A DNA stretch of 51,218 bases from NCBI GenBank assembly GCA_937951625.1, contig CALFBP010000078.1, forward strand, positions 1-51,218. The letters run 5' to 3'. Below the pieces are notes generated by a model, which had not been told where the DNA came from, did no database searches, and was given only the letters and a program-made list of their open reading frames with translations. Numbering within the stretch: position 1 is the stretch's first letter; every line of letters begins with the position of its first letter. Source of the DNA: an uncultured Thermoguttaceae bacterium. Lineage in GTDB: Bacteria; Planctomycetota; Planctomycetia; Pirellulales; Thermoguttaceae. Positions 7,405-51,218 of the stretch are shown here, in pieces. The translations under genes were made by a program, and so were the position numbers.

Positions 7405-8082
7405 ATGGCAACTACCCGCGAACCCCAATACCAACGGTGCCTCGAGGTCTTGGAACAGTACGGCCGCACCGAGCTCGGCTTGATGACCAATCAGGTATGG
7501 CACGATGACCCCAGGCGTTTGGCGTTTGTGCTGGCGCGGTACAAGTTCGTGGCCAAGATGTTCAGCGGGCTGGAGCGGGTGCTGGAGATCGGTTGCGCCG
7601 ATGCCTTCGGCACGCGGTTGGTGCTCCAAGAGGTCCGAGCTTTGACCGCGGTGGACTTCGATCCCCTCTTCATCCAGGACGCCATCGCCCGCATGAACCC
7701 GCGGTGGCGATTCGAGTGTCGGGTCCATGATATGTTAGAGGGCCCGGTCGAGGGACCATTCGACGGAGCGTACGCGCTCGATGTGATCGAACACATCCCT
7801 GCCACGGCGGAAGATGTTTTCATGGCCAATGTGGCTGGTTCGCTCACGGAGCGGGGGGTGTTGATCTTGGGGACCCCCTCGCTCGAGTCGCAAGTCCACG
7901 CCTCGCCGCCAAGTCGCGAAGGGCACGTCAATTGCAAGACCGGCTCTGCCCTCAAGGAGCTGGCCCAACGGTTCTTCCACAACGTCTTTATTTTCTCGAT
8001 GAACGACGAGGTCGTGCATACGGGTTTCTACCCGATGGCGCATTACCTGCTCGCCCTGTGCGTAGGAAAAAGGTTGCCGTGA
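7405..8082 (+). CDS. SAM-dependent methyltransferase (class I), glycan cluster
   Basis: The 225-residue protein is a Rossmann-fold methyltransferase. Motif I is VLEIGCADAFGT (59-70), followed by an acidic residue at the end of strand beta-2 (TAVDFD) and DVIEHI, typical of small-molecule methyltransferases of the Methyltransf_11/23 type. No membrane segment or signal is present. It follows the dehydrogenase gene by 16 bp and overlaps the next gene by 4 bp (GTGA), so translation is probably coupled. A role in O- or C-methylation of a nucleotide-linked sugar is inferred from its neighbours. Confidence 0.82.
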   Translation: MATTREPQYQRCLEVLEQYGRTELGLMTNQVWHDDPRRLAFVLARYKFVAKMFSGLERVLEIGCADAFGTRLVLQEVRALTAVDFDPLFIQDAIARMNPRWRFECRVHDMLEGPVEGPFDGAYALDVIEHIPATAEDVFMANVAGSLTERGVLILGTPSLESQVHASPPSREGHVNCKTGSALKELAQRFFHNVFIFSMNDEVVHTGFYPMAHYLLALCVGKRLP

Positions 8083-8945
8083 CACGGCTGCAAGCCCAAG
8101 CTGCGAAGCTGGTCGTGGGCGCCGGCGGCCTAATTGGCAAGGCCCTGGCCGAGCGTCTGGCCGGCGAAGGATGGCCCGTCCTCTGCACCACGCGCACGCC
8201 AAGGCCCGGCGCTATCGCCTTGGATCTCGCCAAGGATTTCTCCAGTTGGACGCCACCGCGGAGGGTGGACGTGGCCTATCTCTGCGCCGCGGTGGTGTCG
8301 CTGCATCAATGCCGCACGGATCCCGTTGGTTCCTACGCCGTCAATGTGACCGGAACCGTGAACCTCGCTCGAACGTTGCTTCACCACGGGGCGCACGTGG
8401 TTTTCACCTCTAGCAATCTCGTGTTTGATGGTTCACTCGCGCGGCCGCGGAGCGATACGCCGGTCTCACCGGCCACCGAGTATGGAAGACAAAAAGTCGA
8501 AACCGAGCGGCAGCTTTTGGCCCTTTCGGATCGTGTTTGTGTCGTGCGCTTAACCAAGGTATTCGGCCCGAACACACCGTTACTGACACGCTGGGCGGAG
8601 GATTTGCGGCGGGGACAAACCATCCACCCCTTCGTCGACCTGCCGGTGGCCCCCGTGGCGCTGGACTTTGCCGTGGATGTGCTGCTTGAAGTGGGGCGGC
8701 GACGTTTGGGCGGTATCGTGCAAGTTTCAGCTACGGAAGAGATTACCTATGAAGCCGTCGCCCGACGTATCGCAGATCAGCTTGGAGTGTCGCAAGAACT
8801 GGTCGTGCCGATCCGAGCCGCAGACTCCGGGTTGAACCTGGAACACGTCCCCCAGCACGCGGCGCTGGACGTGACACGCTTGCGGAACGAAATCGGCATG
8901 ACCCCGCCCGACGTGTGGTCCACGATCGACGGAGCCTTCGCATGA
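8079..8945 (+). CDS. RmlD-like NAD(P)-dependent sugar reductase/epimerase (extended SDR)
   Basis: The 288-residue product has the nucleotide-binding motif GAGGLIG (14-20) and the catalytic YGRQK (Tyr135, Lys139). TSSNLVFDG upstream of these matches the TSTDYVFDG of dTDP-4-dehydrorhamnose reductases. The start is the GTG at 8079, overlapping the TGA of the preceding gene and preceded by AAAAAGG; an upstream ATG at 7932 lies deep inside the previous gene and is rejected. Its stop overlaps the next ATG (ATGA at 8942-8945). It probably reduces a keto-sugar nucleotide in the same pathway as its neighbours; the exact sugar is unknown. Confidence 0.85.
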   Translation: MTRLQAQAAKLVVGAGGLIGKALAERLAGEGWPVLCTTRTPRPGAIALDLAKDFSSWTPPRRVDVAYLCAAVVSLHQCRTDPVGSYAVNVTGTVNLARTLLHHGAHVVFTSSNLVFDGSLARPRSDTPVSPATEYGRQKVETERQLLALSDRVCVVRLTKVFGPNTPLLTRWAEDLRRGQTIHPFVDLPVAPVALDFAVDVLLEVGRRRLGGIVQVSATEEITYEAVARRIADQLGVSQELVVPIRAADSGLNLEHVPQHAALDVTRLRNEIGMTPPDVWSTIDGAFA

Positions 8946-15387: not shown

Positions 15388-15939
15388 TCAGGACCCTGTC
15401 TGCGAGCGGGATTTTTTCAAGTACTTTTCTAAGATTGCAGGTACCTGGTCGGGGGTGAGCTGGCCGTGCATCTCGTTGTCGATCATCAGCACGGGGGCGA
15501 GGCCACAGGTGCCCAAGCAGCGAGCTTGCTCGACGGTGAAGATGCCATCTTTGCTGGTCTCGCCCCAAGTGATTCCCAATTCGTCCATCAGCCGCGCGGC
15601 GATGCGGTCGGCGCCCTTCACGTAACATGCTGTGCCCATGCAAACGTTGATGATGAACTTCCCCCGCGGCGCTAAACGGAAAAAGTGATAAAAGCTGGCC
15701 ACACCGGCCACTTTGGCCGCTGGCACCCCGAGCAATTGGGCCACGGCGTCCAGATGGGTGGGACTCAAGTGTCCGTACTGCGATTGCACTTTGTGGAGGA
15801 TGCTAATCAGGTGGCTTTCCGGATGGTCTTTGGCCCGGCACTCCTCGATGAAGCGCCAGAGCGGCTCCCCTAGCGCTTCGCGGCTAATGGCCTGAACATG
15901 TTCCCAGTTATCGGTGGTGGAGCAAGTGGGCGAGTTCAT
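15388..15939 (-). CDS. hydC: [FeFe]-hydrogenase subunit HydC (NuoE-like)
   Basis: The 183-residue protein is a NuoE/HydC-type thioredoxin-fold subunit. Helical N-terminal segments with the conserved ASFYHFF (81-87) precede the [2Fe-2S] ligands Cys100, Cys105 (CMGTAC) and Cys141, Cys145 (CLGTC). It should relay electrons between the flavin subunit HydB and HydA, or stabilise the HydB flavin site. Its ATG overlaps the stop of hydA by 4 bp (ATGA), so translation is coupled, and it is the last gene of the operon. Length fits the family (about 160-185). Confidence 0.93.
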   Translation of the reverse strand: MNSPTCSTTDNWEHVQAISREALGEPLWRFIEECRAKDHPESHLISILHKVQSQYGHLSPTHLDAVAQLLGVPAAKVAGVASFYHFFRLAPRGKFIINVCMGTACYVKGADRIAARLMDELGITWGETSKDGIFTVEQARCLGTCGLAPVLMIDNEMHGQLTPDQVPAILEKYLKKSRSQTGS

Positions 15940-17723
15940 CGGATGCCTCGCGGGAATCGAGGAGCGTAATGCGTGTGGAGGAGTTGATGGGCCTTGGGCG
16001 AGCCAGGGCTGCCGAGAAAGTTCTCGTAGACCTCCTCGACAGCCGGGTTTTCATACGATTTGCGAAGCGTCTTGCCCGCGTCGATGGCATACAAGGCCGA
16101 GGCCCGCTTGCGGAGCAGCTCTGGATCTAACACGTGATAGCCCTCCGGGGGATAGGGCTGGCCGCCGCCGCCGATGCATCCGCCCGGGCAAGCCATCACT
16201 TCGATGACGTGGAACGGCTCGCCGGCCTTCACCTTATCCAGCAGAATCTTGGCGTTCGTCAGGCCGTTGGCCACGCCGACGCGGATATTGTGTTCGCCGA
16301 TGGCGACGTGGGTCTCGCGAAGCCCCTCCACGGCGCGGACTTCGGTGAACTCGAGGCGGTCGGCAGGTCGACCGGTGACCAGTTCGCTGGCGGCGCGGAG
16401 CGTGGCCTCCATCACGCCGCCGGTGGTGCCGAAAATGTCGCCCGCCCCGCTGGCCAAGCCCAAGGGGGCATCGAACTCGCCATCAGGAAGCTTGAGGAAA
16501 TCGATGCCATAGCACTTGATCATCCAAATCAGCTCCCGCGTCGTCAGCACCGCATCGGTCATCGGAACCTTGACGGTCTGCCCCTGGCCCAGCTCGGGAG
16601 CGGGGAGGTCGAGATAGTGTTCGGGCCGTCGCGCTTCGAACTTCTTCGCCACGCACGGCATCACCGCGACCATGTAGATTTTCCTCGGGTCGATCCCTTT
16701 CTTCTGCGCGTAATAGGTCTTCACCAGGGCCGAGACCATGGTCATCGGCGAGCGGCAGGTGGAGGCCAAGGGAATCAACTCGGGGTAGAACTTTTCCAAA
16801 AAGCTGATCCAGCCCGGCGAGCAGGAGGTGATCATCGGCAGCGGACCTTCCTTGAGCCGGGTGAGGAACTCGTGGGCCTCTTCGACGATCGTCATGTCGG
16901 CGCCGAAGTCGGTATCGAACACGGCGTCGAACCCCAAACGCCGCAAGGCGGTGACCATCTTGCCAGCCGACGGCGTACCCGGCGGGAGTCCGAAGCCCTC
17001 CCCGATCGCGGCGCGGATCGAAGGAGCGGTTTGCACGACCACGTGCAATTCGGGATTGGCGATCGCCTCCCAAACCCCGCCTGCGCTCCGCTTCTCGACG
17101 AACGCCGCGGTGGGGCACACGGCAATGCATTGGCCGCATTGGATACAGACCGATTCATCCATGTCGGCCATGTGGGCGGGAGCGACCACCGTGTAGAACC
17201 CGCGACCGTGTTGGCTCAGGTTGTGGACCCCTTGGATCTCCGCGCACACCCGCACGCATCGGCCGCAAAGCACGCACTTCTCGCTGTCCCGAACCACGCT
17301 GTGGCTGCTGAGATCGAGGGGGAATCGCTTGCGTTTGCCCTCGAAATGGCGTGCCCTCACGCCCATGGAGTACGCCAGGTTCTGCAACTCGCAATTCCCA
17401 TCGCGTTCGCAGATTTGGCAATCTTTGGGATGGTTGTCCAAGAGCAGCTCGACAATGTCGCGGCGGGCCTGGCGGATGTCGGGCGAATTGGTCTGGACCT
17501 CCATTCCCTCCCAGACCTTTTGGCTGCACGAGGTCATGTAGAAGCCCATGCCTTTGACCTCGACGATGCACACGCGGCAGGAGCCCATCAAGCTGAGATC
17601 GGGATGATAGCAAAGGCGGGGGATGCTGATCCCCAGGCCTTCGCAGGCCTCCATGATCGTGGTTCCCTCGGGGACCGTCACGGGCACGCCGTCGATGGTG
17701 AGATTGATTTTCTTCTTGCGCAT
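15936..17723 (-). CDS. hydA: [FeFe]-hydrogenase catalytic subunit HydA, NAD(H)-linked multimeric class
   Basis: The 595-residue subunit makes or uptakes H2 at an H-cluster. In order: a plant-type [2Fe-2S] domain (Cys38, 49, 52, 66), the His-ligated [4Fe-4S] (His98, Cys102, 105, 111), two [4Fe-4S] ferredoxin motifs (Cys150-160 and 193-203), the H-domain, and a C-terminal small-subunit-like tail (about 535-588). L2 is MPCVAKKFE (355-363) and L3 EVMACPGGC (508-516). L1 reads TSCSPGW (299-305) where the canonical form is TSCCPGW. The proton-path pair Glu281-Glu282 and Ser in CRSP are present. The ATG at 17723 fits the normal start KKINLTIDG, 5 bp after hydB. Maturases HydE, HydF and HydG are not in the window. 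Confidence 0.95.
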   Translation of the reverse strand: MRKKKINLTIDGVPVTVPEGTTIMEACEGLGISIPRLCYHPDLSLMGSCRVCIVEVKGMGFYMTSCSQKVWEGMEVQTNSPDIRQARRDIVELLLDNHPKDCQICERDGNCELQNLAYSMGVRARHFEGKRKRFPLDLSSHSVVRDSEKCVLCGRCVRVCAEIQGVHNLSQHGRGFYTVVAPAHMADMDESVCIQCGQCIAVCPTAAFVEKRSAGGVWEAIANPELHVVVQTAPSIRAAIGEGFGLPPGTPSAGKMVTALRRLGFDAVFDTDFGADMTIVEEAHEFLTRLKEGPLPMITSCSPGWISFLEKFYPELIPLASTCRSPMTMVSALVKTYYAQKKGIDPRKIYMVAVMPCVAKKFEARRPEHYLDLPAPELGQGQTVKVPMTDAVLTTRELIWMIKCYGIDFLKLPDGEFDAPLGLASGAGDIFGTTGGVMEATLRAASELVTGRPADRLEFTEVRAVEGLRETHVAIGEHNIRVGVANGLTNAKILLDKVKAGEPFHVIEVMACPGGCIGGGGQPYPPEGYHVLDPELLRKRASALYAIDAGKTLRKSYENPAVEEVYENFLGSPGSPKAHQLLHTHYAPRFPRGIR

Positions 17724-17728
17724 CTTGT

Positions 17729-19912
17729 TTATAGCCTCAGTACCGCGTCGAAGCGGCAGACCTCGAAGCACTTCCCGCACTTAACGCACTTCAACTGGTC
17801 GATTTCATGCGGTTGCCTTCGCGCACCTGTGATGCACGGCACCGGACAATTTCTCGCACAAAGCGTACAGCCGATGCACTTTTCGGGATCGATCTGGTAA
17901 TGGATCAAGGCGGTACACTTGTGGGCGGGGCACTTTTTATCGACGACGTGCGCCACGTATTCATCGCGGAAGTGTTCGAGCGTGCTCAACACCGGATTGG
18001 GGGCCGCCCGGCCCAGTCCGCAAAGCGAGGTCTTCTTCATCAACAGGGCCAGACGCTTGAGGCGATCCAAGTCCTCCAGCGTGCCCTGACCCGTGGTGAT
18101 CCGCTCCAAGATTTCCAGCATCCGCACGCTGCCCTCGCGGCAGGGCGTGCATTTCCCGCAAGATTCGTCCTGGGAGAATGTGAGGAAAAACTTGGCGATG
18201 TCGACTACGCAGTCATCCTCGTCGAGGATGATCATGCCTCCGCTGCCCATGATCGAGCCGGCCTTCGTCAGGGTGTCGAAGTCGATCGGCGTGTCGATCC
18301 ATTGGGCGGGGATGCAGCCACCGGCGGGGCCGCCCGTCTGCACGGCTTTGAGCTTTTTACCTTCAGCCACACCGCCGCCGATGTCGTAGACCACTTGCCG
18401 GAGCGTGGTGCCCATGGGCACTTCCACCAAGCCGGTATGCCGAATCTTGCCCGCCAAAGCGAAGACCTTTGTGCCGCCGCTGGCGGCCGTGCCGATGCGG
18501 CTGAACCAGTCGGCGCCGTAATTGATGATGGCGGGCACGTTGGCGAACGTCTCCACGTTGTTGATCACGGTGGGCTTGCCCCACAGGCCCGATTCGGTCG
18601 GATAGGGGGGGCGGATGCGGGGCTGGCCCCGGCCGCCCTCGATCGACTGGATCAGCGCGGTCTCCTCGCCGCAAACAAAGGCGCCCGCCCCCAGCCGAAT
18701 CTCCAGATCGAAGTCGAATCCCGATCCGAGGATGTCTTTGCCCAACAGGCCCCACTCGCGGCACTGGGCGATGGCGTTCTCGATTCGGCGGATGGCCATG
18801 GGGTATTCGGCGCGGATGTAGACGAACCCCCTGGCCGCGCCAATGGCGTAGGCCGCGATGATCATGCCCTCGACCACGTTCAAGGGATCGGACTCCAACA
18901 TGCTTCGATCCATGAAGGCCCCGGGATCGCCCTCGTCGGCGTTGCAGATCAGATAGCGGGTTTTATCGGGAGATTTGGCGGCCATGGCCCATTTTTCGCC
19001 CGTGGGAAACCCCCCGCCGCCCCGACCACGGAGTTTGGATCGGGTAATCTCTTCGATGACCCACTTGGGATTGCCCCGGCTCAGCACCTTGGTCAGGGCC
19101 TCGAAGCCACGGTAGTGGAAGTATTCTTCAATGCTCTCGGGATCGACAACGCCGTTATGCCGCAGGACGATCCGGGTCTGGCGATTGAAGAAGGCGACGT
19201 CGCCGTAGAGTTCTAGGAACTTGCGACCAATGGTCTTTCCCGGCACCTGAAGACGCTCGACAACCCGCCCGCCAAGGATGTGGCTCTGGAGGATTTCGTC
19301 CAAATCGGCCTCGTCGGCGACGCGATAGAGGACTTTGGCGGGTCGGATCAAGAGGTGGGAGCGGCGAGAAGGTTCTTCCATGTTGCACGCGCCAAAACAA
19401 CTGCCGACCGTCACGCGGACTTGTTCTGGGCCGATTCCCGCCGCCGCGAGCTTATCCTTCAAGACCGCGACAAAGCTTTTGCCTTCCCGCCAGCCGCAGC
19501 GCAGGCTGCCGCAGGTGAGGATTTCCAGGGGGACGAGGTTCTCCACTGGACCATCCAGGATGCGGTTCAAAACCGGCTGGCCGCCCAAGATATGTTGGGT
19601 GAAGATTTCGTGAACGGCCTTGCGATCGACGCGTTCATACTTGATGGGAATCTGGCCCGGCACGAGGACGCCCACGATCGGCTCCCGGCTGCATCGGCCT
19701 GTGCAGCCCGTGCGGCGCAACTGGATGTCGCTGCGGCCGGAGGCAGCCACGTGCTTCTGAAACTCGGCCAATACTTCGTCGGCCCCAGCCGCCTGCTCAC
19801 AGGTTGCGGAACCAACCTGAATATGAATCGCGCGAGCGGACGTCCTCGCCCGAAGCGCCTGTTCAGCCCTGGCGAGCAGGGCATTGAATTGCTGGGAAAC
19901 TTTGTTGGACAC
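17729..19912 (-). CDS. hydB: [FeFe]-hydrogenase flavoprotein subunit HydB (NuoF-like), with tandem Trx-like Fe-S domains
   Basis: The 727-residue subunit binds FMN and NAD(H). Two thioredoxin-like domains come first: residues 28-113 (Cys38, Cys70, Cys74) and 130-215 (Cys134, Cys139, Cys172, Cys176), both ending in HILGG. NuoF follows, with the flavin motif GRGGGGFPTG (296-305), the SLBB region, and the [4Fe-4S] ligands CGKCTPC (585-591) and Cys631. The tail has CPAHKC (661-666) and two ferredoxin clusters (679-689 and 709-719). Thermotoga-type HydB is about 100 residues shorter with one Trx-like domain (family knowledge). The start is GTG with GAGGAGG 4 bases upstream. It is the first gene of the hydBAC operon. 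Electron bifurcation with ferredoxin is possible but not proven by sequence. Confidence 0.93.
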   Translation of the reverse strand: MSNKVSQQFNALLARAEQALRARTSARAIHIQVGSATCEQAAGADEVLAEFQKHVAASGRSDIQLRRTGCTGRCSREPIVGVLVPGQIPIKYERVDRKAVHEIFTQHILGGQPVLNRILDGPVENLVPLEILTCGSLRCGWREGKSFVAVLKDKLAAAGIGPEQVRVTVGSCFGACNMEEPSRRSHLLIRPAKVLYRVADEADLDEILQSHILGGRVVERLQVPGKTIGRKFLELYGDVAFFNRQTRIVLRHNGVVDPESIEEYFHYRGFEALTKVLSRGNPKWVIEEITRSKLRGRGGGGFPTGEKWAMAAKSPDKTRYLICNADEGDPGAFMDRSMLESDPLNVVEGMIIAAYAIGAARGFVYIRAEYPMAIRRIENAIAQCREWGLLGKDILGSGFDFDLEIRLGAGAFVCGEETALIQSIEGGRGQPRIRPPYPTESGLWGKPTVINNVETFANVPAIINYGADWFSRIGTAASGGTKVFALAGKIRHTGLVEVPMGTTLRQVVYDIGGGVAEGKKLKAVQTGGPAGGCIPAQWIDTPIDFDTLTKAGSIMGSGGMIILDEDDCVVDIAKFFLTFSQDESCGKCTPCREGSVRMLEILERITTGQGTLEDLDRLKRLALLMKKTSLCGLGRAAPNPVLSTLEHFRDEYVAHVVDKKCPAHKCTALIHYQIDPEKCIGCTLCARNCPVPCITGARRQPHEIDQLKCVKCGKCFEVCRFDAVLRL

Positions 19913-25802: not shown

Positions 25803-28800
25803 TCACCAACGGAAGGCTACGGCGATCGTCTCACCCTCGTTGGCCAGGCATTCCTGCTCCAACGTCAATCGGATTTCCTTGCCGTTTTGACGCGAAGTGA
25901 AGGGGAGCGGTCGCCCAGCCACGGAAACTTCCGCCTTGGCGTCGGGCGCGTCGGGCGGGAGCTCGAAGATCAATTCCCTCAGCCGCAGTCGCCCGTGACG
26001 GACTTCAATCCGCTCGGTCTGCTGCCGCCCCTGGCGCTGCTGGACAAACAACCCCCAAGCCTCCGGAGCGGTATAGAACGATCGATGATCTTCCGGCTGC
26101 CAGCGGGGTTTGAAACCAAGCAGGCCCTGGGGACCGTCGAGGACCTGGCCTTGCGAAGCCAGAAGCAGCGACCACGAACTCATGGCCCGGGCGTAGAACT
26201 TCCCGCATTCCAGCTCGTTGAACGGGTTGCCGCCAGGACCGGAGTTGAGGTCTTTGCGCTCGCGGCCGTCGTAGCGGCTTCGGGCGGTGCGGACGATCTG
26301 CCGGGCGGGTTCGATCAGGCCCTCGTAGACCATTGCTCCGGCCGTGGAGTATTCGATGCCTGTCCATACCTCGTCGGCATACAGGATGAACGGTTGAGGC
26401 CGGTCGTTGTGCGGCCAGGTGCAGATCAGCAGGCCGCCTTCGTCGTCGACGACGTAGCGACGCGGGTCTTGTCGGAATCCGTGGAAATCGCGGCGGAAGT
26501 TGTGCTTCATCACCGCTTCCAAGGCCTGATGCACCCGATCCGGCGGATAAAGATAACCCAAATCCAGCATGTGGGCCCACCACTGGCCCAAGAGCTGGTC
26601 TGCATGGCAGCCGTTGTTATAATCTCGGGCGGGCTGAGGCTCGGGAATCTGAATGTAGTATTCCCCATTCCAGAGCCTCTCGTTTTGATTTTTCTTGCCC
26701 GCCTCGAGCACGGCCTGCCAACGGGCCGCCGCCTCGGGATCGTTCATCACCGCCGCCAACCGGATGCCCGCGGCCAGGGCCGCCAAATACTGCGAGCCGA
26801 TGAACGTGTTCGGCCCGGAAACGGCCGTGTCGTAGGTGTTCCACTGATGTCCGGCGGGCAAGCCGTCGCGGTCCTTGTCGATGGCCTCGATCAGCCAGTC
26901 GACCGCCTTCCTTACACCGGGCCAGATGGTTTCCAAGAAGCGGCGATCCGGGCTGAGTTGATGCTCGCGCAGTGCCGCCACGATGCAGGCACAATGCCCG
27001 TCGATGAAGGCCTTGTGGGGCGAGTGTTCCCGATGCGATGTCTCCCCGCTGGAATGCAGAAAGGTGATAAAGTTCGATACCCGCATGTTCCGGCCCACTT
27101 CGGGGAACAAACGGGCGTGCGACTGCGCGTAGTTCCAAACATGGGTGCAATTCAACGGACAGCAGCCGTAGCTCCCCTCGAACCCGCCGAAATAACCGTC
27201 CTCGGACCAGAAACACGTCGGCCCACGGAGGATACAACTCTGCGAACTCATGGCGTCGAGAAACTCTTCCGGCAGGTTGGACTGGTAGAGCGTCTCGTGA
27301 TAGAGCCGGGTGCGTTCCCAAAGCCCCTGGGCGTTGTCGGCTACATAGCGGGCCACGTTCATGGCGTCCTGCCAACGCGTCGTGTAGAGGTTGCCAAAAT
27401 GCTGGAATCGCTGGACGTTGGGAAAGTGCCAGGCGATCACGAAGGTGGCGGTTTTTTCTTCACCCGGCTTCAGCGTCATCGAAACCGCCAAGGCAGCGTT
27501 GACGGTCTCGCCCGGCGGGCTGACGGCCTCCTGTGATGCGGGGCTCGTGGCGGGCAGCGTCGAGAACCAGGCCAGCAAGTCGTCCTTCCGGGTCCAGCCG
27601 GGCAGGGCAGCGGCCGATGGTTCACTGGTCGCGAGGGCCATCGTCCCCCAGCCCGGCGAACCAGGCTCGAGCTGTTCGCCATTGGCCAGCGGTTTGCCGC
27701 GAAGCGAGGCCAGCAGAGCACGACCCCAGCTCCACGGAAGCCCAGGGGCCATTGCGAAAACGACATGCCCTTTGCCTAGCGGACCTCCGATGATCAGCGG
27801 ATCGCCGTCTGCCGTGGCCGCAAGCGCGCGATAGCCTTTCTCCCCGTTCACGAAGCCGCGGAGTCGGGTGAATTGCGTGACTTTCCAGGCGTCGACTAGT
27901 GCTTTCAACTCCGCCGGGGCCTGGTCCGCCACGACCAGCCGGTGGTCGGGCGCAAGCGTCGCGGACTCGGCCTCCTGGAACGACACGCCGAGGTCCTGAG
28001 CCACCGCGTAGCTGGCCGTGGCTTTCTTCAGCAAGCCTTCTGGCGGAATGTCGGAAAAGAGAATCTGGTCGATGTTGATGTGGCCCCAGCCGCCCGATTC
28101 GCGATCGACGATTTCGAGCAACGCTTCCTTGCCCCGAAATTCTTCAACGTCCCACGTGGCAGGTTCCAGGGCCTCATTGTTCTTACCGGTCGCCGTGCGC
28201 ACGATCTTGTCGCCAACGCGCAGGTTGATGCAGGTTTTGCCCGGGTGGTTTCCTCCACCGATCAAGAAGCCGATGTAACGTCTCTCGATCGTGAAGGGTT
28301 TGGAAGTGGCCGTGCCTTGGGGGCCATCGCCCGCAATGAACGTGTTGACCAGCCTCTGGCCCGCGAAACCGCTGACCGGCTGTTGGTTGGCCTCGGTGCC
28401 GCGGGAGGGGGCGTTGCCGAAGGCGTCGCCGGTCAAAGTCCACCCCTCGTAGGTTCCCGACTCGAAATCGGCAAACACCGTGGCCACAGCCGAGAGATCG
28501 TCTCCCGCCCGCCGCAAGGCGGCGATGGTTTTAAGAAATCCTGGCTGGATGCCGTCGATGAGCACGATCCCGCCCGCCGCGCTGATTTTCGCCAGCGACT
28601 CGGCAACCTTGGGCGTGAAATCCCTCAGTCCGGCAAGCCAGAGCATCTCGGGCCCTTCGACCCGGCGCCCGTTGGCGTCGCGAATCAGGACTGGCCCCGA
28701 CGCCACTGGATCGGGCGTCTTGCTCATCGCCACGTAGGTCCAGTCTTTCTCGCGGATCACGCGGTTGATATTGCCGCCGTAGCGCTCGAAACGCACGCCA

Positions 28801-29477
28801 CGGATGTCAGCCGAACCTTCACTCCCGACCGCGTTTTGCAGCGCCGCCAGAAAATCGATGGGAACAACCGTTTGCCCCGTGTTGCGGGCCGTGAGGCGAA
28901 ACACCGCGCAGGGGATCGACGAGTTGACCGTATCCAGTGGGATCATCGGATTGAAGGCCTCCAGACGGATTTGGAGCGGCAGCTCGAAATCGTGGAAGTC
29001 CAATCGCGCGATCGGATAGCCGCCTTCGTAGCGGAGACCGGTCATGGGCCGGAACGGCCCTTCGCCGGCGGTTTGCAACGCGCGGATCAGTGATTTACCG
29101 CTGGTCTGCACGCGGACGGCAAAGAAGCTGTCGGGGATGCGAATTTCGTTGAGGTTGTTGAAGATTTGCCAAACACTGAGCCGTCCCTGACCATCGAGCC
29201 AGATGCTGCCTGTGCCGATCCCGCCGATCGGCATGGCCACGGCTTCCAGATGGCTGCCTTGGTAGACGCGCGGCGCCGTGATGGGATAGTTCCACTCTGC
29301 GAGGCGCTGGGGGGTGGTCAAACGGCGCGCTTCCCCATCGGGACTGGCAGCCCTTGTCGACTCGGCCACGATAGCCAGACTGAGGAATCCCAAGATTATT
29401 CGCAGGAGTTGCCAGGGCCTAAAGATGATTGGCCAAAGTTGGACGCAAGTGTTACTCGAATCGCAAGCTGTGGGCAT
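25803..29477 (-). CDS. Exported GH116-like (GBA2-type / DUF608) protein with nested inserted domains
   Basis: The 1224-residue protein begins with a hydrophobic export segment (about 23-42). The GBA2-type N-terminal domain (about 60-270, with IGGIGTGSIWL) is followed by a ThuA- or amidotransferase-like region interrupted at 336-478 by a beta-sandwich of the type often fused to levanase-like hydrolases (DFESGTYEGW, GGWGHINIDQI). The catalytic (alpha/alpha)6 domain spans about 690-1170: GGFEGSYGCC supplies candidate nucleophile Glu767, and WNTYDTAVSGPN the acid Asp883. GH116 enzymes are beta-glucosidases, beta-xylosidases or N-acetylglucosaminidases. GGGAG 6 bases upstream fixes the ATG at 29477. 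Activity on a beta-linked glycan is inferred. Confidence 0.85.
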   Translation of the reverse strand: MPTACDSSNTCVQLWPIIFRPWQLLRIILGFLSLAIVAESTRAASPDGEARRLTTPQRLAEWNYPITAPRVYQGSHLEAVAMPIGGIGTGSIWLDGQGRLSVWQIFNNLNEIRIPDSFFAVRVQTSGKSLIRALQTAGEGPFRPMTGLRYEGGYPIARLDFHDFELPLQIRLEAFNPMIPLDTVNSSIPCAVFRLTARNTGQTVVPIDFLAALQNAVGSEGSADIRGVRFERYGGNINRVIREKDWTYVAMSKTPDPVASGPVLIRDANGRRVEGPEMLWLAGLRDFTPKVAESLAKISAAGGIVLIDGIQPGFLKTIAALRRAGDDLSAVATVFADFESGTYEGWTLTGDAFGNAPSRGTEANQQPVSGFAGQRLVNTFIAGDGPQGTATSKPFTIERRYIGFLIGGGNHPGKTCINLRVGDKIVRTATGKNNEALEPATWDVEEFRGKEALLEIVDRESGGWGHINIDQILFSDIPPEGLLKKATASYAVAQDLGVSFQEAESATLAPDHRLVVADQAPAELKALVDAWKVTQFTRLRGFVNGEKGYRALAATADGDPLIIGGPLGKGHVVFAMAPGLPWSWGRALLASLRGKPLANGEQLEPGSPGWGTMALATSEPSAAALPGWTRKDDLLAWFSTLPATSPASQEAVSPPGETVNAALAVSMTLKPGEEKTATFVIAWHFPNVQRFQHFGNLYTTRWQDAMNVARYVADNAQGLWERTRLYHETLYQSNLPEEFLDAMSSQSCILRGPTCFWSEDGYFGGFEGSYGCCPLNCTHVWNYAQSHARLFPEVGRNMRVSNFITFLHSSGETSHREHSPHKAFIDGHCACIVAALREHQLSPDRRFLETIWPGVRKAVDWLIEAIDKDRDGLPAGHQWNTYDTAVSGPNTFIGSQYLAALAAGIRLAAVMNDPEAAARWQAVLEAGKKNQNERLWNGEYYIQIPEPQPARDYNNGCHADQLLGQWWAHMLDLGYLYPPDRVHQALEAVMKHNFRRDFHGFRQDPRRYVVDDEGGLLICTWPHNDRPQPFILYADEVWTGIEYSTAGAMVYEGLIEPARQIVRTARSRYDGRERKDLNSGPGGNPFNELECGKFYARAMSSWSLLLASQGQVLDGPQGLLGFKPRWQPEDHRSFYTAPEAWGLFVQQRQGRQQTERIEVRHGRLRLRELIFELPPDAPDAKAEVSVAGRPLPFTSRQNGKEIRLTLEQECLANEGETIAVAFRW

Positions 29478-29770
29478 GGAGACTCCCTCTCTTACCACGC
29501 ATCAACTGTTCCCATAGATCGGCACCATTATGTGCCAAAGCGGGACCGTTTTCTAGAGTGTCGGAAGCCAAATACGGCAAGATGCGTTACTCTTGACGCC
29601 CGCACACTTGCGGGGGTAGGCTTGGAAAACCATCGCACAAGCCTGGACCGAAGTCATTGGATCGGACGACTGGAAAACCCCATCCACGAGTCGCGCGGTC
29701 AAGCGGCGAGTCTGCCGCGTGAAGAGGCCTCGCCGGTCTTGCGCGGTCGCTGGATGCGAAAGGATGCCGC

Positions 29771-40822: not shown

Positions 40823-43729
40823 ATGAAACCCAATCTTCTTGCAGTTGCCGTAGGTCTAGCCGGTGTGTTGGCGACTTCGGGTGCCGACGAATCGAGGCTT
40901 CGTCTGCCTGTGGTCCGCGACACGTGGTTTTCGGCCGTGGACCACGAGGCCGATTGCAATCTGGGCGGCGCGGCCCGATTGAAATTGAAGTCCATTCAGG
41001 AAATGTCCCTGGTCGATCTCGATCCGACGCCGCTAGTGGGCCGCGTGGTGCGTCGAGCGGCCTTGCACGTCCGAGTGAGTGGGGAAGAAGTCCTGAAGCG
41101 GGTCACGGTCGGCACGTTCGCCGCGCCGTGGGTCGAAGGCACGGCGGAATCGTATCAACCGCAGGTCGGCAGCTCGACTTTCCGCCGCCAGCGTCATCCC
41201 GACGTCCCCTGGGCGGAACCGGGCAGCGACCTGACCGCCGTGGTACTTGGTCGAGGAGGCAGTCTTTGGGCCTCGGCCGATGCCTCTCCGCCCGACGAGC
41301 AACGCTGGCAAGTCATTCCCGTGGACCCGAGGATCGTGGCCGCCAGGATCGCCGGGGTGAGTGAGGGATTCTTTCTTTTCGACGACACGGGCACGGAATG
41401 GACTCGAAAGGGCGAAGAGTTCACGATGCGGCTCTTCCCCAACCGCTTCATCCATAGTCGGCAATCGCGGCGAGACAGCGTGCCGTATTTTACGGTTGAA
41501 TTGGGCCCGGCCGATCGTGAGCCTCCGCTGGCCGCACACGGTCTTGTGGGCCACGCGGGCACCCTTCCCGCCGGTGAGGCCGAGGTTTCGTGGATCACGC
41601 CGCAAGACCGCGGTCCGGCGGGAACGATCGGGTTTTTCGTGGATGTCGAGGGCAAGCCCGTGCCGCGGTACTTGATTCCAGCCGCCACAATGCCGGGCGA
41701 AAAGGTGGTGATGCGACTGCGAGATCTTGATCTCAAGCCCGGGGCGGAAGTCCGGGTGGCCGTTCGGGCCGTGGACGGGGCGGGAAACATTGGTCCGGCG
41801 ACCGACGCGGTGGTGCGCCTCTCGGACCGACGCGTGCCCGACTTGCCGGGCCAAACGCCCAACATTCCGAAATCTGCTGGCCCTCTGCCCCCCTTGGGCC
41901 GTGCCCGCCTCGCGATCCTCGACGCCCTCGATAAACTCCATCCCGTCAGTGGCGACATGATCCCCAAGCGCTCGCCGGAGTACCTGGCCGGCAACCACCT
42001 CTGGAATGCCGAGGAGAAACAGATTCGGTTGTTCTCCGCGAAGAACGAGTTCATCGAGTTTCAGGTGGCGATCTTGGGCGAGGTCCGCGGGTTGCGACCG
42101 GAGTTGATTTTCTCTGGGCAGGGAGAGAAGCCGCGTGTCGCGTGGGGCTGTTACGGCTACGTGGCGTCGAAAGCAGGCCCCCTGCCCGACCCCGTGGTCC
42201 CGCTCGATGGCCCTCTCGATATCCCTGATCCCCGTCAGTCCATCGCGGACCAACGTGCAGGAAGTCTGCACTGCGAGATTTTCGTGCCGCACGGCATGGA
42301 ACCCGGTATTCACCACGGCACGCTGCGCTTGCGATCCCAAGATGCCAGCTTGGATCTGGCCGTGACCTTGGAGGTTTGGGACTTCACCCTGCCCGATTTC
42401 TTGAGCTTCCTACCCGAGATGAACTGCTACGGGCTTCCCGGCAATGAGCGGGATTACTATCGCTTGGCGCACGTGCATCGCACCGTGCTCAATCGGGTTC
42501 CGTATTTCCAGAACGGTGTAGTGGCTGAGGGCTGTGCTCCCCGCTGGGACGGCCAACGGCTGGATTGGACGGATTGGGACCGCCGCTTCGGGCCTTATTT
42601 CGATGGATCGGCGTTCGCCGACCTGCCTCGAAGCGCTGTGCCTTTGGAATGCTTCTATCTGCCTTTACACGAAAACTGGCCCGCGAAAATCGCGGAGGCC
42701 TATAACGAGAGCTATTGGGCCGACCAGGCGTTCGCCGCCGGCTACCGCGAGGCCTTTGTCGAGGCCGCGCGGCAAATCGCCGAACACTGCGCCCAGCGCG
42801 GATGGCGCGATACGATGTTCCTCGGGTTTTTGAACAACAAGATCGACTTCAAACGCCGTGGTTGGTCCCGCGGCTCGTCGCCCTGGCTGCTCGATGAACC
42901 AGCCAATTTCCAGGACTTCTGGGCGTTGCGTTATTTCGGCGAGGCGTTCCACGAGGGGATCGCCAAGGCTCGGTTCCCTGGTCTGCCGCCGAGGCTCCTG
43001 TACCGCTGCGACATCTCTCGCCCTCAGTGGCAACGCGACGTACTCGATCCCGTGCTGAATTACAACGTGGTCAACGGGGGCGCGTTCCGAGAGCATCATC
43101 GGCTGGTCATGGACCGCAAGGAGCGCTTCGGGCAGATCGTTCTCGATTATGGTTCCACCAACGCGATCGAGCAAAGCAACATGCAGCCGGTGGGCTGGTG
43201 CATCGACTCGTGGTGCCTAGGCTCCGACGGCGTGATCCCTTGGCAAACGATCGGCACGCGAGAGTCGTGGGAGAAGGCCGATCCCTTGGCGCTATTCTAT
43301 CCAGGAAATCCCCCCTGGCTTTCGCTATCTCCGGCGAACCAAGCAGCCGACGGCCCCAAACCCGGCAATCCGACCGTCACAAGTCCCCCAATCCCATCGA
43401 TCCGTTTGAAGGCCTATCGCCGCGGCCAGCAAGACGTGGAGTATCTCGTCCTGTTGACGGAAATGCTGAAAGAACCGCGTTGGGCGGTGGGCCAAAGCGT
43501 GCGTCGATGGCTGAGATTGGAGGGGCAACAGCGGGCCACCGGCGTGGCCCGAGGTGAAGACGCCGGCAGGATAGAATATGCCAGGTTGCTTCCCGAGCAG
43601 GTCTGGTCGCTCCGGGTGCGTCTGGGCCGGGCGTTGTCGGCCATGCACCCTACGTCGAAGCGGAAACGCATCGATTTTCCCAACCCGATGCGGCCCGCTT
43701 CTCAACCGTCGCCCGCCGCAGCACAATGA
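40823..43729 (+). CDS. Exported DUF4091 / GH123-like protein
   Basis: The 968-residue protein has a signal peptide (MKPNLLAVAVGLAGVLATSG), an N-terminal beta-sandwich region resembling DNRLRE-type domains (DTWFSAVDHEADCNLGG), a middle Fn3-like segment, and a C-terminal TIM-barrel region. The block IRLKAYRRGQQDVEYLVLL is the conserved end of DUF4091 proteins, which share the barrel of GH123 beta-N-acetylgalactosaminidases. Catalytic Asp-Glu could not be assigned. It follows the HPr gene by 15 bp. Hydrolysis of an amino-sugar glycan is inference. Confidence 0.8.
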   Translation: MKPNLLAVAVGLAGVLATSGADESRLRLPVVRDTWFSAVDHEADCNLGGAARLKLKSIQEMSLVDLDPTPLVGRVVRRAALHVRVSGEEVLKRVTVGTFAAPWVEGTAESYQPQVGSSTFRRQRHPDVPWAEPGSDLTAVVLGRGGSLWASADASPPDEQRWQVIPVDPRIVAARIAGVSEGFFLFDDTGTEWTRKGEEFTMRLFPNRFIHSRQSRRDSVPYFTVELGPADREPPLAAHGLVGHAGTLPAGEAEVSWITPQDRGPAGTIGFFVDVEGKPVPRYLIPAATMPGEKVVMRLRDLDLKPGAEVRVAVRAVDGAGNIGPATDAVVRLSDRRVPDLPGQTPNIPKSAGPLPPLGRARLAILDALDKLHPVSGDMIPKRSPEYLAGNHLWNAEEKQIRLFSAKNEFIEFQVAILGEVRGLRPELIFSGQGEKPRVAWGCYGYVASKAGPLPDPVVPLDGPLDIPDPRQSIADQRAGSLHCEIFVPHGMEPGIHHGTLRLRSQDASLDLAVTLEVWDFTLPDFLSFLPEMNCYGLPGNERDYYRLAHVHRTVLNRVPYFQNGVVAEGCAPRWDGQRLDWTDWDRRFGPYFDGSAFADLPRSAVPLECFYLPLHENWPAKIAEAYNESYWADQAFAAGYREAFVEAARQIAEHCAQRGWRDTMFLGFLNNKIDFKRRGWSRGSSPWLLDEPANFQDFWALRYFGEAFHEGIAKARFPGLPPRLLYRCDISRPQWQRDVLDPVLNYNVVNGGAFREHHRLVMDRKERFGQIVLDYGSTNAIEQSNMQPVGWCIDSWCLGSDGVIPWQTIGTRESWEKADPLALFYPGNPPWLSLSPANQAADGPKPGNPTVTSPPIPSIRLKAYRRGQQDVEYLVLLTEMLKEPRWAVGQSVRRWLRLEGQQRATGVARGEDAGRIEYARLLPEQVWSLRVRLGRALSAMHPTSKRKRIDFPNPMRPASQPSPAAAQ

Positions 43730-46585: not shown

Positions 46586-49500
46586 CTATCGTCCCCGCGA
46601 GCTGCCGGAAGAACCGCTTCGGTTGCGGTTGGACCGCCGGTTGGCGTCACTCCGCGGAGAGGAGGCCGGACCACTGAACGCTCCGGTGCGATTCATGGAG
46701 CCGGGACTAAACGTGGCCCGGGAGCGAGAGGAAGGGTTACTGCCCGTGGGGCCCCCCATCGGCGATGGCGGTGGCGATCCGATGGATCCGCCCATGCCCC
46801 CCGGGAACCCAAACGGCGAATCGCCCATGCTTCCCGGGAAGCCGAACGGCGAACCGAAGCCCCTGCGGCCGAATCCGAACGGGGAAGTCTGCTGGGGCGG
46901 GCTACTGGACGGTGAGGGAGTCGATCCCGACCGATTAAACTGCACCGAAGGCCCCACCATGGCCGAGAGGGCCTGACGAATCGTTTCGGAATTGGCCCGC
47001 TGGAGCGTCACCACCTGAAGCGTCTCGCTCGTATCGCCCGCCGCCTCGTCCAACTGTTCCACGAGTTCTTTGACTTCCTGGAAGAGCGAGTCGGGGGCGA
47101 CGACAATCAGGGAGTTGGTGCGTGGGTCCGCACTGACGGACAGCTTGGCAGCCTCTTCCTGGCCGCCGCGCTGCGATCCGCCGCCGCGTCCGCCACGCAT
47201 GGCCCGCATCGCCATGATGAAGTCTTGCGGCGTGGGTGGACGGCTTGCGCCCGATTGCCCCGCCATGCGGTCCTGATAGAGTTGGCGAATCACATTGGCG
47301 ACTTCCTCGGCCTGCGTGTTGTAGAGCGGAATCAAGCGGGGCTTCGGCGCCGCCAGGACTTCCTCTGGGCTTTCTCGCTCGTCGAGAATCTTGAGGAGTT
47401 GCTCGATCGTGTCCAGGTCGGCGGGCTTGGCGTACACGATGAGCGCGTTGAGGCGGTTGTCGGCCGTGATCTGAACGCTCCCCGATGTCCGAGTGCCGCC
47501 ACCGCCGTTGCCGCCACTGGGGCCGCTGCCCAGAAGGGTTCCCAAGAGACCTCCACCCATGTCTCCCAGGGCAGCGCCGGCCAAGTCCCCTAGGAACGAG
47601 CCACCTCCACCTCCGGACGAGCCGAGCGTCCCGCCGCCGAGAATCTGATCCAATGTCTCGGCCACCGCGCTGGCCTTGGCGTGCTTCAGATAAAATACCG
47701 TCAACTCGGGCTTGCCCGACAAAAAGTTTCCCGCCATCGTGGTCAACAGTCGCTCGATCTCGTCCAAGGCGTCGCGATCTTCCGAGGCAATGATCACGCC
47801 GCCCGGCGAGGGACGAACCAGCACCGGCGGCTTTTCGTCCTTCGGCGGAGCGGCGGGTTTGGCGGCCGGCCCCGCAGGCGACGCCCTTGGCGGCTGAGAC
47901 GCATCGCCCACGCCCGCCTTGACTTCAGGCGACGCCGGGGCCATGGGTTTTTCGACCTTTTCCGCAGCCGCACCTGCGACAACCTCAGGCTTCGCGGTAC
48001 TATTGGCTTGTTTAGGGCCGTCGAGCACCTCGGCCGACGGCGTTCCACCGTCGACCCGTTGCGTGGCGAACACCACTTTCGCCTTGGACCCCGACGCCGA
48101 TGGCAGACTCTGCGTGGACTTGTCGCCTGGCGGTGCGGCGGCCTCTGGCCGTGGCGGTGACGATGGAAGCGGCGGATTGACCGCTGGAGGAGCAGGCGGC
48201 GGGGAGACGCTTGGTTGCGGTGCGCCACTCGGCGGTTGCTGTTCCGGGCGTTTCCGCAGGCTCTGGAGCAATTCGAGCAGCGATTCCCGCTGCTTTTCCA
48301 TAGAATCCTCGAGATCATCCGACGGAGGGCTGCTCGACGCATCCGCGCCAACCGACGCACTGGGACGGCGTGTAGAAATCCCGCCCGCCGACGGCGTGAC
48401 CACCCGGATGCGATTCGGCCGGACCGTCGGCCACATCTCTTCCAATCCCTCGAGCGCCGTTCGCGCCGCCGCGCCGGTCAGCGGCACCACGCGCAGGTTG
48501 CTGGCCCCAAGACGATCGGACGTTCCCGACTCGCCCATTTGCTGAAGCATCTGACGAATCTGCTCGATTTGCGATTCGCTCCCGCGGACCAGCAGCCGCT
48601 TGGAATACGGATCGGCGTCCACCTTCGGGGCGCCCGGCCCCGCCTCGGCCGCGAAAAGTTTCGTAATGGCCGCTACGGCCAATTGGGGGTCGAGCGCCCG
48701 CAACGGGAAGACTTCCAAACGACGGCTGTCTCGCTGCAACTGCTCGATCGTGGCCTTGATGGTGGCGTGGGCGGCCCGCCGTCCCAGGGCGATGATGTTT
48801 CCCGTCTTGGGATCCACGCTCAACCGCACCTCCGGCATTCCGACCAGCAACGTTTGGAGTACCTGGAAAACCGAATTCGGGTCCGCCCCCGATACCGTGT
48901 AGACCTCCAATTGCGGAGCGTCGCCCAGCCGTGTCTTTTGCGGATTGGCGGGATCGGGCACGTCGATGGCCTTGACGATTTCCTCGACTCGGGCCACGGC
49001 ATCCGGCTTGCCCGTCACCAAGAGCCGCCCACCCATCGGATCCACGACAATATGCACCGAGCCGTCGGCCGACGCGTTGCGATCGACAGGAATGTCTAAG
49101 AGTTGGCGGATGACGAAAAGGGCGTCCTGCGGGTCGGCATACTGGAGTTCGATCGGACGGATCCGGGCCGCGGCGCCCTGCGGATTTTCCATCGCTTGGA
49201 TCGTTTGGCGGATCAAACGCATTCGCCCTCCCGTCTCCACCACCCGTACCTGCCGCGACTTGGGCAGGACGGTCACCGACCCTTGCGGTCCCTTGAGCCT
49301 GTTGATTTCTTGTTCCACCTCCTCGGGCGAGACGTTCTGTAACTGGAAAACGACCTCGATCAACTCGTGTTGCCCGCGCTTGTCGATTTCTTCGACCGGT
49401 ACGGTTTCAATCAAATTCGGCGGGATGCCATCCTCCAGATTGATCACCATCAACATTCGGCCCTTCCGCACCAAGGTATAACCCTTGGTCTGAAGTACCC

Positions 49501-50869
49501 CATTGAGCAAGTCGATCGCTTCAGCGGCCGTGTACTCCCGCGAATCAGTGTAATTGAACGTCCCTTTAGGAATGTTGTCGCCCACCAACGAAAGGTCCGC
49601 CGTTTCCGCAAACCAGTCCAGAACGTCTTTCCACGGTTGATAACGGAAGTTGAACCTCAGTTTGTCGGAGGGCTTCGCAGGCGCAAGCCGATCGCTTGGT
49701 CCCACCGGCTTCGCCTCGCCCGGCACAACATTGGGGCCACCGGGCGGCATGGTCTGTTTCGCAGGCACCGGCGTGACGGCCTCCGCCGCATCGGGCTTTG
49801 CTGCCTCCTGGGGTTTTGGTTCCGGGGCCTTGGCCTGATCGCCAGGCTTGGGGGCCGCCTCCGGCGTGGGCACAGCCTTGGCGGCCTCCCCGGTCGGCAA
49901 GGGCTGGGCCGCCACCGACGTGGGCGGGGGTTTCATTGGCCCCACGGTCGGCACGGGCTTAGCTGCTTCCGGAGCCGCCGCGGCCTGAGCCGCCTCTTGA
50001 GGCTTCGTTTCTACCGCCTCTTGAGGCTTCGTTTCTACCGGCTTCGTTTCTCCCGACTTTGGTTCCTGAAGTTTCGATTCCGGGGTTGACGCTAGGGGAG
50101 CCGATTCGCTCGGCCTCGCGGCACCTTCCACGCCGGCCATGGGTTGGGCTGCCTCAGGCGGCGAAGGCTTCGCTGCATCAGAATTCGCCGCAACCGGAGC
50201 CGACTCCGGAGGCTTTGTGCCTGTGGGCTTCGCTTCCGGGGCCTGGGCCTCAAGCTTGTTCTCCGCGGCGTCTGTCGGCAACCGCAAGGCCTCGAGTGCG
50301 GCGCGTTGTTGCGGATCGAGCAACGAGGACACCTTCTGGTCGATCTCGGCGCGGACTGCCCGGGCAGCCTTCTCATCGGCCCTCGTTAGTTGCTTTGCCT
50401 GCTGGCGAAACAGCTCGGCCAAATGTGTCCGCTGCTGGGGCGACAAATTGAGCTTTTCCGCGAACTCGCCATCCAAGGCGCCTGCCAAGCCCCATCGGGC
50501 CATGCGGATCTGTTGCAGTCGCGCCTGCTGCTGTTTGCTCAGCAAAGCCAATCCCATCGACTCGGACTGGCGACGAAACGCGGCGAGTTTTGCAGCCGTT
50601 TCTTCGGCTGGGAGGTTCTTCAGTTGAATGGCCAGTTCCAGGGCTTCGCTTTCCCGGGCGTCGACCAGCTCGAGTAGTTTCTGCCTTTGGCTCTCGGTGA
50701 GCCCCAGCTTGTCGGCAACGTCGGCCTCGATGGCCAGGGCCAAGATGCCGACGAATTCCGGGGCCGCGACCTCGGCCGCCTTCAAAGCCGGCCCAGCAAA
50801 CCAGACCGACCACCCGACCAGCATCGCGCATCCGCAAATGCGGACAAGTCTTGCGCAACTGTTGAACAT
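46586..50869 (-). CDS. Secretin-N-domain protein with LTxxQ-like N-terminus and no secretin barrel
   Basis: The 1427-residue protein has a signal peptide (MFNSCARLVRICGCAMLVGW), then about 35-200 helical repeats with LTxxQ-like motifs (LTESQRQKL, LSKQQQARL, LSPQQRTHL, LDPQQRAAL) resembling Spy/CpxP-type proteins. A Pro/Ala/Lys/Glu-rich linker (about 200-395) follows, then several N0/N1 secretin domains (NFRYQPWKDVLDWFAE, PLYNTQAEEVANVIRQL). A Gly-rich insertion and a Gly/Phe/Ser/Pro-rich tail (SPFGFG) replace the secretin barrel. It is probably an outer-membrane- or periplasm-associated assembly or scaffold protein. GGAG 6 bases upstream supports the ATG at 50869. Confidence 0.85.
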   Translation of the reverse strand: MFNSCARLVRICGCAMLVGWSVWFAGPALKAAEVAAPEFVGILALAIEADVADKLGLTESQRQKLLELVDARESEALELAIQLKNLPAEETAAKLAAFRRQSESMGLALLSKQQQARLQQIRMARWGLAGALDGEFAEKLNLSPQQRTHLAELFRQQAKQLTRADEKAARAVRAEIDQKVSSLLDPQQRAALEALRLPTDAAENKLEAQAPEAKPTGTKPPESAPVAANSDAAKPSPPEAAQPMAGVEGAARPSESAPLASTPESKLQEPKSGETKPVETKPQEAVETKPQEAAQAAAAPEAAKPVPTVGPMKPPPTSVAAQPLPTGEAAKAVPTPEAAPKPGDQAKAPEPKPQEAAKPDAAEAVTPVPAKQTMPPGGPNVVPGEAKPVGPSDRLAPAKPSDKLRFNFRYQPWKDVLDWFAETADLSLVGDNIPKGTFNYTDSREYTAAEAIDLLNGVLQTKGYTLVRKGRMLMVINLEDGIPPNLIETVPVEEIDKRGQHELIEVVFQLQNVSPEEVEQEINRLKGPQGSVTVLPKSRQVRVVETGGRMRLIRQTIQAMENPQGAAARIRPIELQYADPQDALFVIRQLLDIPVDRNASADGSVHIVVDPMGGRLLVTGKPDAVARVEEIVKAIDVPDPANPQKTRLGDAPQLEVYTVSGADPNSVFQVLQTLLVGMPEVRLSVDPKTGNIIALGRRAAHATIKATIEQLQRDSRRLEVFPLRALDPQLAVAAITKLFAAEAGPGAPKVDADPYSKRLLVRGSESQIEQIRQMLQQMGESGTSDRLGASNLRVVPLTGAAARTALEGLEEMWPTVRPNRIRVVTPSAGGISTRRPSASVGADASSSPPSDDLEDSMEKQRESLLELLQSLRKRPEQQPPSGAPQPSVSPPPAPPAVNPPLPSSPPRPEAAAPPGDKSTQSLPSASGSKAKVVFATQRVDGGTPSAEVLDGPKQANSTAKPEVVAGAAAEKVEKPMAPASPEVKAGVGDASQPPRASPAGPAAKPAAPPKDEKPPVLVRPSPGGVIIASEDRDALDEIERLLTTMAGNFLSGKPELTVFYLKHAKASAVAETLDQILGGGTLGSSGGGGGSFLGDLAGAALGDMGGGLLGTLLGSGPSGGNGGGGTRTSGSVQITADNRLNALIVYAKPADLDTIEQLLKILDERESPEEVLAAPKPRLIPLYNTQAEEVANVIRQLYQDRMAGQSGASRPPTPQDFIMAMRAMRGGRGGGSQRGGQEEAAKLSVSADPRTNSLIVVAPDSLFQEVKELVEQLDEAAGDTSETLQVVTLQRANSETIRQALSAMVGPSVQFNRSGSTPSPSSSPPQQTSPFGFGRRGFGSPFGFPGSMGDSPFGFPGGMGGSIGSPPPSPMGGPTGSNPSSRSRATFSPGSMNRTGAFSGPASSPRSDANRRSNRNRSGSSGSSRGR
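49991..50038. repeat. 24-bp tandem repeat inside the secretin-N gene linker
   Basis: Two copies of a 24-bp unit, 49991-50014 and 50015-50038, encode the consecutive VETKPQEA segments of the low-complexity linker. A partial third unit follows. The repeat keeps the frame, so copy number could vary without breaking the gene. Confidence 0.7.
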
Positions 50870-51218
50870 TCCCGCTCCGCCATGGCTGGACGCACGGCCG
50901 CATGAGCCGCGCGCACTCAAGGTTATTAACGGAAGCCACCGCCCCCTTCTACCATCCTAACCAGGGGAAAACTCGGTGACTACATTTCTCCCGTCACTTA
51001 AACCCCGCCTACGAATTGTAGTTTCGTTCCCCCCTTTCTTGTACCTAATGCCACCTTATAGTGGATCCGTTGACCAGCCGTTTTATGGGCATGTTCAAGC
51101 GATCATTGATTTCCCAACCCCGACGACCTTTTTTTCGCGATGGATCATCGTCGCGCGGTGATGGCTGTGACAGCTTAACACTTGGAAATTATCAAACTGC
51201 GTTCCCCACTTTTTGTGG
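50870..51218. other. Intergenic/edge region upstream of the secretin-N gene
   Basis: This 349-bp end of the window holds no recognisable gene. It should contain the secretin-N promoter on the minus strand; TATAAG (near 51056-51061) and TACAAT (near 51014-51019) occur on that strand, but neither has a good -35 partner. A tract of seven T residues lies near 51127-51134. Confidence 0.45.

Follow-up and report, generated by a model that had tools for sequence, protein, structure and literature searches.

A barrel-less relative of the type II secretin GspD as a putative second channel subunit in Thermoguttaceae

This work concerns a gene on the reverse strand at positions 46586-50869 of contig CALFBP010000078.1 (assembly GCA_937951625.1), a stretch of 51,218 nucleotides from an uncultured Thermoguttaceae bacterium that is called the window throughout; its product, together with the barrel-less relatives of like type, is referred to as F1. 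We propose, as the reading that we rather favour, that F1 is an exported, barrel-less paralogue of GspD, the secretin of the type II secretion system (T2SS), and may serve the T2SS channel as its second subunit, so that the secretin would be built from two pieces. The first-pass annotation had suggested that the protein might be a scaffold and no secretion channel, a view that is now less supported, and F1 is more likely best seen as a piece of the secretion machine than as a free-standing scaffold, because barrel-less relatives occur within clusters of T2SS genes and its presence tracks that of the pseudopilin GspG. The comparisons cover a sample of 61 genomes of the Thermoguttaceae (hereafter the own family), 149 genomes across the phylum, and an alignment set of 28 proteins that includes the window protein; f3 denotes a second family, covered by six genomes from three genera, and f1 and f2 are further family labels.

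Sequence and fold matches alike bear out the secretin N-domains that had been read in this protein. The Secretin_N family (PF03958) matches F1 in six separate stretches in Pfam (E=8.5e-74, 244.2 bits against a cut-off of 28.2), as it matches all 28 aligned proteins, and the N0 family (PF21305) gives a weak match below the Pfam cut-off (E 0.0066). The best NCBIfam model is that of GspD (TIGR02517, 196.6 bits, under the equivalog cut-off of 351.35), and the solved chains nearest in sequence are T2SS secretins. An AlphaFold model of residues 1-835, built with eight aligned sequences (mean pLDDT 62.9, and 70-90 over most ordered parts), comprises an all-helical segment (37-208), a disordered linker, an N0 domain (403-482) and four N1-type domains; Foldseek returned secretin N-domains as its top matches (E 3e-10), and a structural aligner ranked the N0 of Escherichia coli GspD first (4jtm_A, Z 11.2, rmsd 2.6, 80 aligned). 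For residues 1010-1427 the model has low confidence (mean pLDDT 51.7), and its top fold matches, still secretins, only repeat the sequence result. A beta-barrel was not detected, as the barrel family PF00263 has no match in F1 at E<=1 and none in any of the 28 aligned proteins at E<=0.1; the same family matches five other genes of the window's genome. By profile comparison, the C-terminal block of F1 aligns to the middle N-domains of GspD (consensus 528-751 of 1344), before the barrel (99.5%, E 3e-22). Beyond it, the C-terminus is rich in Ser, Gly, Pro, Arg and Phe, in keeping with the Gly/Phe/Ser/Pro-rich tail noted in the first-pass annotation.

The link with type II secretion comes from gene order and from co-occurrence. 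In all six f3 genomes, which come from three genera, a barrel-less relative is the next gene upstream of gspE, in the same orientation and roughly at the usual place of gspD; gspF-J matches follow in line in two of these genomes and are divergent in two, and in one genome GspE, F, G and K were confirmed by Pfam. Within the own family, F1 of genome G005 adjoins gspE-J matches, an LTXXQ protein and an EF-hand protein, and in two other genomes it adjoins GspD and a lipoprotein gene. Additionally, when F1 was scored as present wherever a frame shorter than 1800 aa matched with 150 bits or more, with presence lists compiled by hand, GspG was found in 31 of the 32 own-family genomes with F1 vs 5 of the 29 without it (Fisher 8e-11, 61 genomes), and barrel GspD in 31/32 vs 13/29; G044, which holds only an edge fragment (120.7 bits), was scored as lacking F1. 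Kinship enters these statistics through a genus-level count only, in which GspG occurs in 23/23 genera with F1 vs 2/17 without (Fisher 3e-9). F1 could alternatively belong to another system, such as a type IV pilus, a Tad pilus or the surface crateriform structures, and merely co-occur with T2SS genes, for which it speaks that most own-family loci lie away from gsp genes and that the window's genome has other barrel secretins. However, this is quite improbable in view of the co-occurrence with GspG and of the barrel-less relatives beside gspE in 6/6 f3 genomes.

Two kinds of neighbours recur around these genes. In 24 of 25 own-family loci (e.g. L035:6110-7360, and L034 near 7558-8199), the gene that comes after barrel GspD or overlaps it is lipoprotein-like; the one product of such a gene that was scanned matched no Pfam family, and by inference these genes may encode a pilotin analogue. 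EF-hand proteins recur beside gspE or F1 (L145:5224-6516, L137:7493-8578, L084:7784-9025).

F1 is neither a singleton nor the only barrel-less type. A match to its residues 403-640 at E<=1e-15 was found in 41/61 own-family genomes, paralogues counted, and the window's genome itself codes on contig C25 (L033:6909-15461) for a giant barrel-less paralogue of 2850 aa with an N0 domain and 20 Secretin_N stretches. Frames related to this giant paralogue in other genomes measure ~2000 to 5394 aa, and gspE-F matches stand alongside in 2 of 19 genomes, both of one genus, with a weak GspE-like match in G046 besides. The one protein checked of a third and more distant type, F3, has no barrel either. Records named Pirellulales and Blastopirellula are among those of the family. 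The C-terminal Arg is shared by 24 of the 27 aligned proteins in which it is readable and by seven of seven further proteins from f2 and f3 (31/34). In a 54-row tree of the N0 region, the barrel-less proteins separate at 100/100 from the N0s that f3 barrel GspDs carry, which points to an old barrel-less lineage. These observations bear on whether F1 could be a degenerating GspD, its barrel already gone and the rest heading for loss, as its sub-cut-off GspD match (196.6 vs 351.4 bits for TIGR02517) and its end within an N-domain might suggest; decay is nevertheless highly improbable, given that the barrel-less layout and the Arg-ended tail recur in relatives from f1, f2 and f3, and given the separation in the N0 tree.

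The distribution of the N0 domain in the own family would suit complementary roles of the two proteins. A profile built from F1 N0 domains, which diverged N0s may escape, found an N0 in none of the 25 fetched own-family barrel GspDs (best E 4.7) nor in the single GspD of G181, and Pfam N0 was not among the matches listed (best 25 of 27 families) for the 25 own-family proteins. The same profile finds N0 in three of three giant paralogues, in seven of seven further F1 relatives and in a fused chain of G171. In the window's genome its hits are the window protein and the giant paralogue, with no credible match in the five barrel secretins, one of which (contig C18, near 39 kb) has an N0-like stretch by eye. 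The G171 chain comes from a distant planctomycete of another family and is a single frame of 4213 aa (L169:6396-19037) that unites an N0 (1.3e-4), 43 Secretin_N stretches and a barrel (4.5e-50); it comes after gspE-F-G matches, with two genes between that we read by eye as GspK-like and GspL-like, and its branch is too long for placement in the N0-region tree.

Several observations weigh against F1 as a second channel subunit. First, the barrel GspDs of f3 carry an N0 in 6/6 cases by the F1-N0 profile, and the barrel-less protein would there be an addition, not a replacement, because the barrel partner keeps its N0; N0 seems to have been lost from own-family barrel GspDs and kept in both proteins in f3. 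Also, G020 has a barrel GspD without N0, yet no F1-type match was found in it. Second, the N0-region tree joins the f3 operon proteins to F3 (86/85, not starred) and so does not place them as strict orthologues of F1. Third, linkage in the own family is sparse: gsp or GspD genes lie in the fetched flanks of only 3/28 aligned loci, tblastn found no gsp gene in the window, whose contig ends ~350 bases upstream of the ATG, and clustering of flanking ORFs (open reading frames) found no conserved F1 neighbourhood in the own family (largest shared set <=5 loci). The small neighbour sets that own-family loci do share were set aside, as they consist partly of antisense or generic genes. Fourth, the co-occurrence with GspG may partly stem from shared ancestry, and across the phylum GspG is present in 116/149 genomes and the F1 segment in 10/149. 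Because of this disparity, a T2SS can work without F1, which is a feature of a branch and not of every planctomycete T2SS. Finally, GspC (PF11356) was not found in the 61 own-family genomes, with a positive control in E. coli and Caulobacter and with GspG in 36/61.

The N-terminal helices had been likened to LTxxQ proteins such as Spy and CpxP, and this likeness is borne out by motif count and, with the window's module just under the Pfam cut-off, less firmly by profile. Of the two results that would have refuted the first-pass annotation, a secretin barrel and a lack of LTxxQ similarity, neither was obtained. The whole protein gives no match to LTXXQ (PF07813) at E<=1; the isolated module (residues 33-215) does so at E=2.7e-4 (22.0 bits, curated cut-off 24.3), and 13 of 16 module sequences match at E<=10, the best at 1.8e-6. 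Four L[TSND]xxQ motifs occur in F1, a number equalled in 2 of 5000 residue shuffles, and a profile search of solved structures with the module reached Spy only at E 0.63, behind unrelated chains. The module is not the core of an F1-type protein, because 11 of the 28 aligned proteins appear to be without it (16 have it and one is cut off). Where F1 is without the module, in G005, a stand-alone LTXXQ protein above the cut-off (5.9e-16) lies one gene away; in three f3 genomes, this protein has matches in the N-terminal part of F1 relatives (1e-11 to 1e-14). This pattern hints at a working link between module and F1, because the module is fused in some proteins and a separate neighbour in G005.

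Such a chaperone-like module, the long Pro-rich linkers, the lipobox-like starts (...GC or ...SC) read by eye in 4/28 aligned proteins from two genera, and paralogue frames of ~2000-5400 aa that fit a spacer would all suit a periplasmic tether or assembly scaffold, in which N-domains strung together as a monomer or a filament, with a lipid anchor in some cases, would join the T2SS to the outer membrane or the peptidoglycan without forming conduit rings. We consider this unlikely, since in solved secretin structures the rings are formed by N0 and N1-type domains, and the single chain of G171 fuses such domains to a barrel.

Based on the findings in this work, a second channel subunit could operate as follows. 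The N0 and N1-type domains of F1 probably form rings, and these rings may stack at the inner-membrane side and thereby lengthen the periplasmic vestibule of the separately encoded barrel GspD, with the Gly-rich loops and the tail lying in or around the lumen. The N0 of a secretin binds GspC. In the own family, the barrel GspDs are without a detectable N0, so that F1 or the giant paralogue, as the supplier of N0, would have to dock the channel to the inner-membrane platform. An enlarged periplasm, as the accessible text of PMC11131199 describes for planctomycetes, would give a reason for the extra rings. A wider generalisation is possible, although we hold it tentatively: the T2SS conduit of Planctomycetia may combine a barrel GspD with an array that has N0 but no barrel (F1, or a giant of ~2000-5400 aa), with many more N-domain rings than textbook secretins and perhaps bridging the enlarged periplasm, and the fused G171 chain with its 43 N-type matches would represent this conduit as a single piece. 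A strict split of the secretin for the whole class was dropped, as f3 barrel GspDs keep N0. If these proposals are true, a secretin channel could be assembled from more than one kind of chain, a separate, repeat-expandable subunit could determine how long its periplasmic vestibule is, and it would be explained how a T2SS without recognisable GspC (0/61 genomes) might still dock its channel. They would also describe a distinctive export route for the planctomycetes, which secrete many polysaccharide-degrading enzymes. Layouts that diverge in this way could contribute to missed detections.

The gene lies in an ORF at 46586-50920 on the reverse strand, and translation from the ATG at 50869 gives 1427 aa (Table 1). 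We read the order as signal peptide, helical module, Pro-rich linker, one N0, about seven N1-type domains, a half domain and the tail, the N-domain array forming two blocks separated by a Pro-rich insertion of ~180 residues. In our reading, this insertion (829-1012) splits the fifth N-domain, two further domains carry Gly-rich insertions, and the eighth stops half-way before the tail.

Table 1. Parts of the F1 gene in the window, with residue ranges and the basis of each assignment
Feature	Position	Strand	Basis
Whole gene F1, 1427 aa + stop	46586..50869	-	ORF and translation
Signal peptide, residues ~1-31	50777..50869	-	by eye: hydrophobic stretch then ...AAE; relatives alike
Helical module, residues 37-208, L[TSND]xxQ at 57, 110, 142, 184	50246..50761	-	motifs; all-helical in model
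Pro-rich linker, residues 209-402	49664..50245	-	predicted disordered, pLDDT <50
N0 domain, residues 403-482	49424..49663	-	PF21305 0.0066; fold closest to E. coli GspD N0, 4jtm_A
Four N1-type (Secretin_N) domains, residues 502-780	48530..49366	-	Pfam, model, fold match
Fifth N1-type domain, first half, residues ~790-828	48386..48502	-	own reading of sequence and model
Pro-rich insertion within fifth domain, residues 829-1012	47834..48385	-	sequence
Fifth domain, second half (beta-beta-alpha), residues 1014-1050	47720..47830	-	low-confidence model
Sixth and seventh N1-type domains, residues 1053-1284, Gly-rich insertion in each	47018..47713	-	best Secretin_N match 1058-1166; low-confidence model; profile match to middle GspD N-domains
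Half N-domain, residues 1285-1315, array ends here	46925..47017	-	low-confidence model, profile comparison
Gly/Ser/Pro/Arg/Phe-rich tail, net basic, final Arg, residues 1316-1427	46589..46924	-	composition; relatives similar

Elsewhere in the window, a gene for an iron-only hydrogenase large subunit adjoins one for a NuoF-like 51K subunit, with overlapping frames (15936-19912), a glycosyl hydrolase family 116-type protein of 1231 aa is encoded at 25803-29498, and a 968-aa protein at 40823-43729 has no Pfam match at E<=1e-5.

Among known systems, the T2SS secretin GspD (PulD, XcpQ, ExeD, EpsD) gives F1 its best fold and sequence matches and shares with it the signal peptide, the N0 and the N1-type domains, and with the f3 barrel-less relative the place beside gspE. 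Unlike GspD, F1 has no barrel, and it has more N-domains, Pro-rich linkers, the LTxxQ module and an Arg-ended Gly-rich tail; a separate barrel GspD is coded in the same genome. The LTXXQ family (PF07813), whose members Spy and CpxP are periplasmic chaperones, resembles the helical module through the four LTxxQ-like motifs and through the stand-alone protein adjoining a module-less F1 in G005, whereas the F1 module is fused to secretin domains, scores under the cut-off and meets Spy only at E 0.63 by profile. Related small ring-building-motif domains make periplasmic rings without a barrel in SpoIIIAG, PrgK and FliF, which belong to different systems and, to our knowledge, have no N0 with a long N1 array. 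The closest precedent for a two-piece secretin would be the RhcC1/RhcC2 split secretin of rhizobial type III secretion: the accessible text of PMC3574062 and PMC3973906 places the N- and C-terminal parts of this outer-membrane secretin (rhizobia, Pseudomonas syringae T3SS-2) on separate genes, sometimes apart, and notes a lipoprotein gene near rhcC2, in both respects like the arrangement proposed here. However, RhcC1/RhcC2 is a type III and F1 a type II setting, the barrel GspD here keeps about eight N-domains of its own, and in f3 also N0, and the barrel-less F1-type proteins form a lineage of their own. T2SS genes are noted in the accessible text on the planctomycete 'Ca. Uab amorphum' (PMC6906331), and no report of a barrel-less T2SS secretin, or of any barrel-less secretin in planctomycetes, was found in the open literature, subscription journals and preprints excluded.

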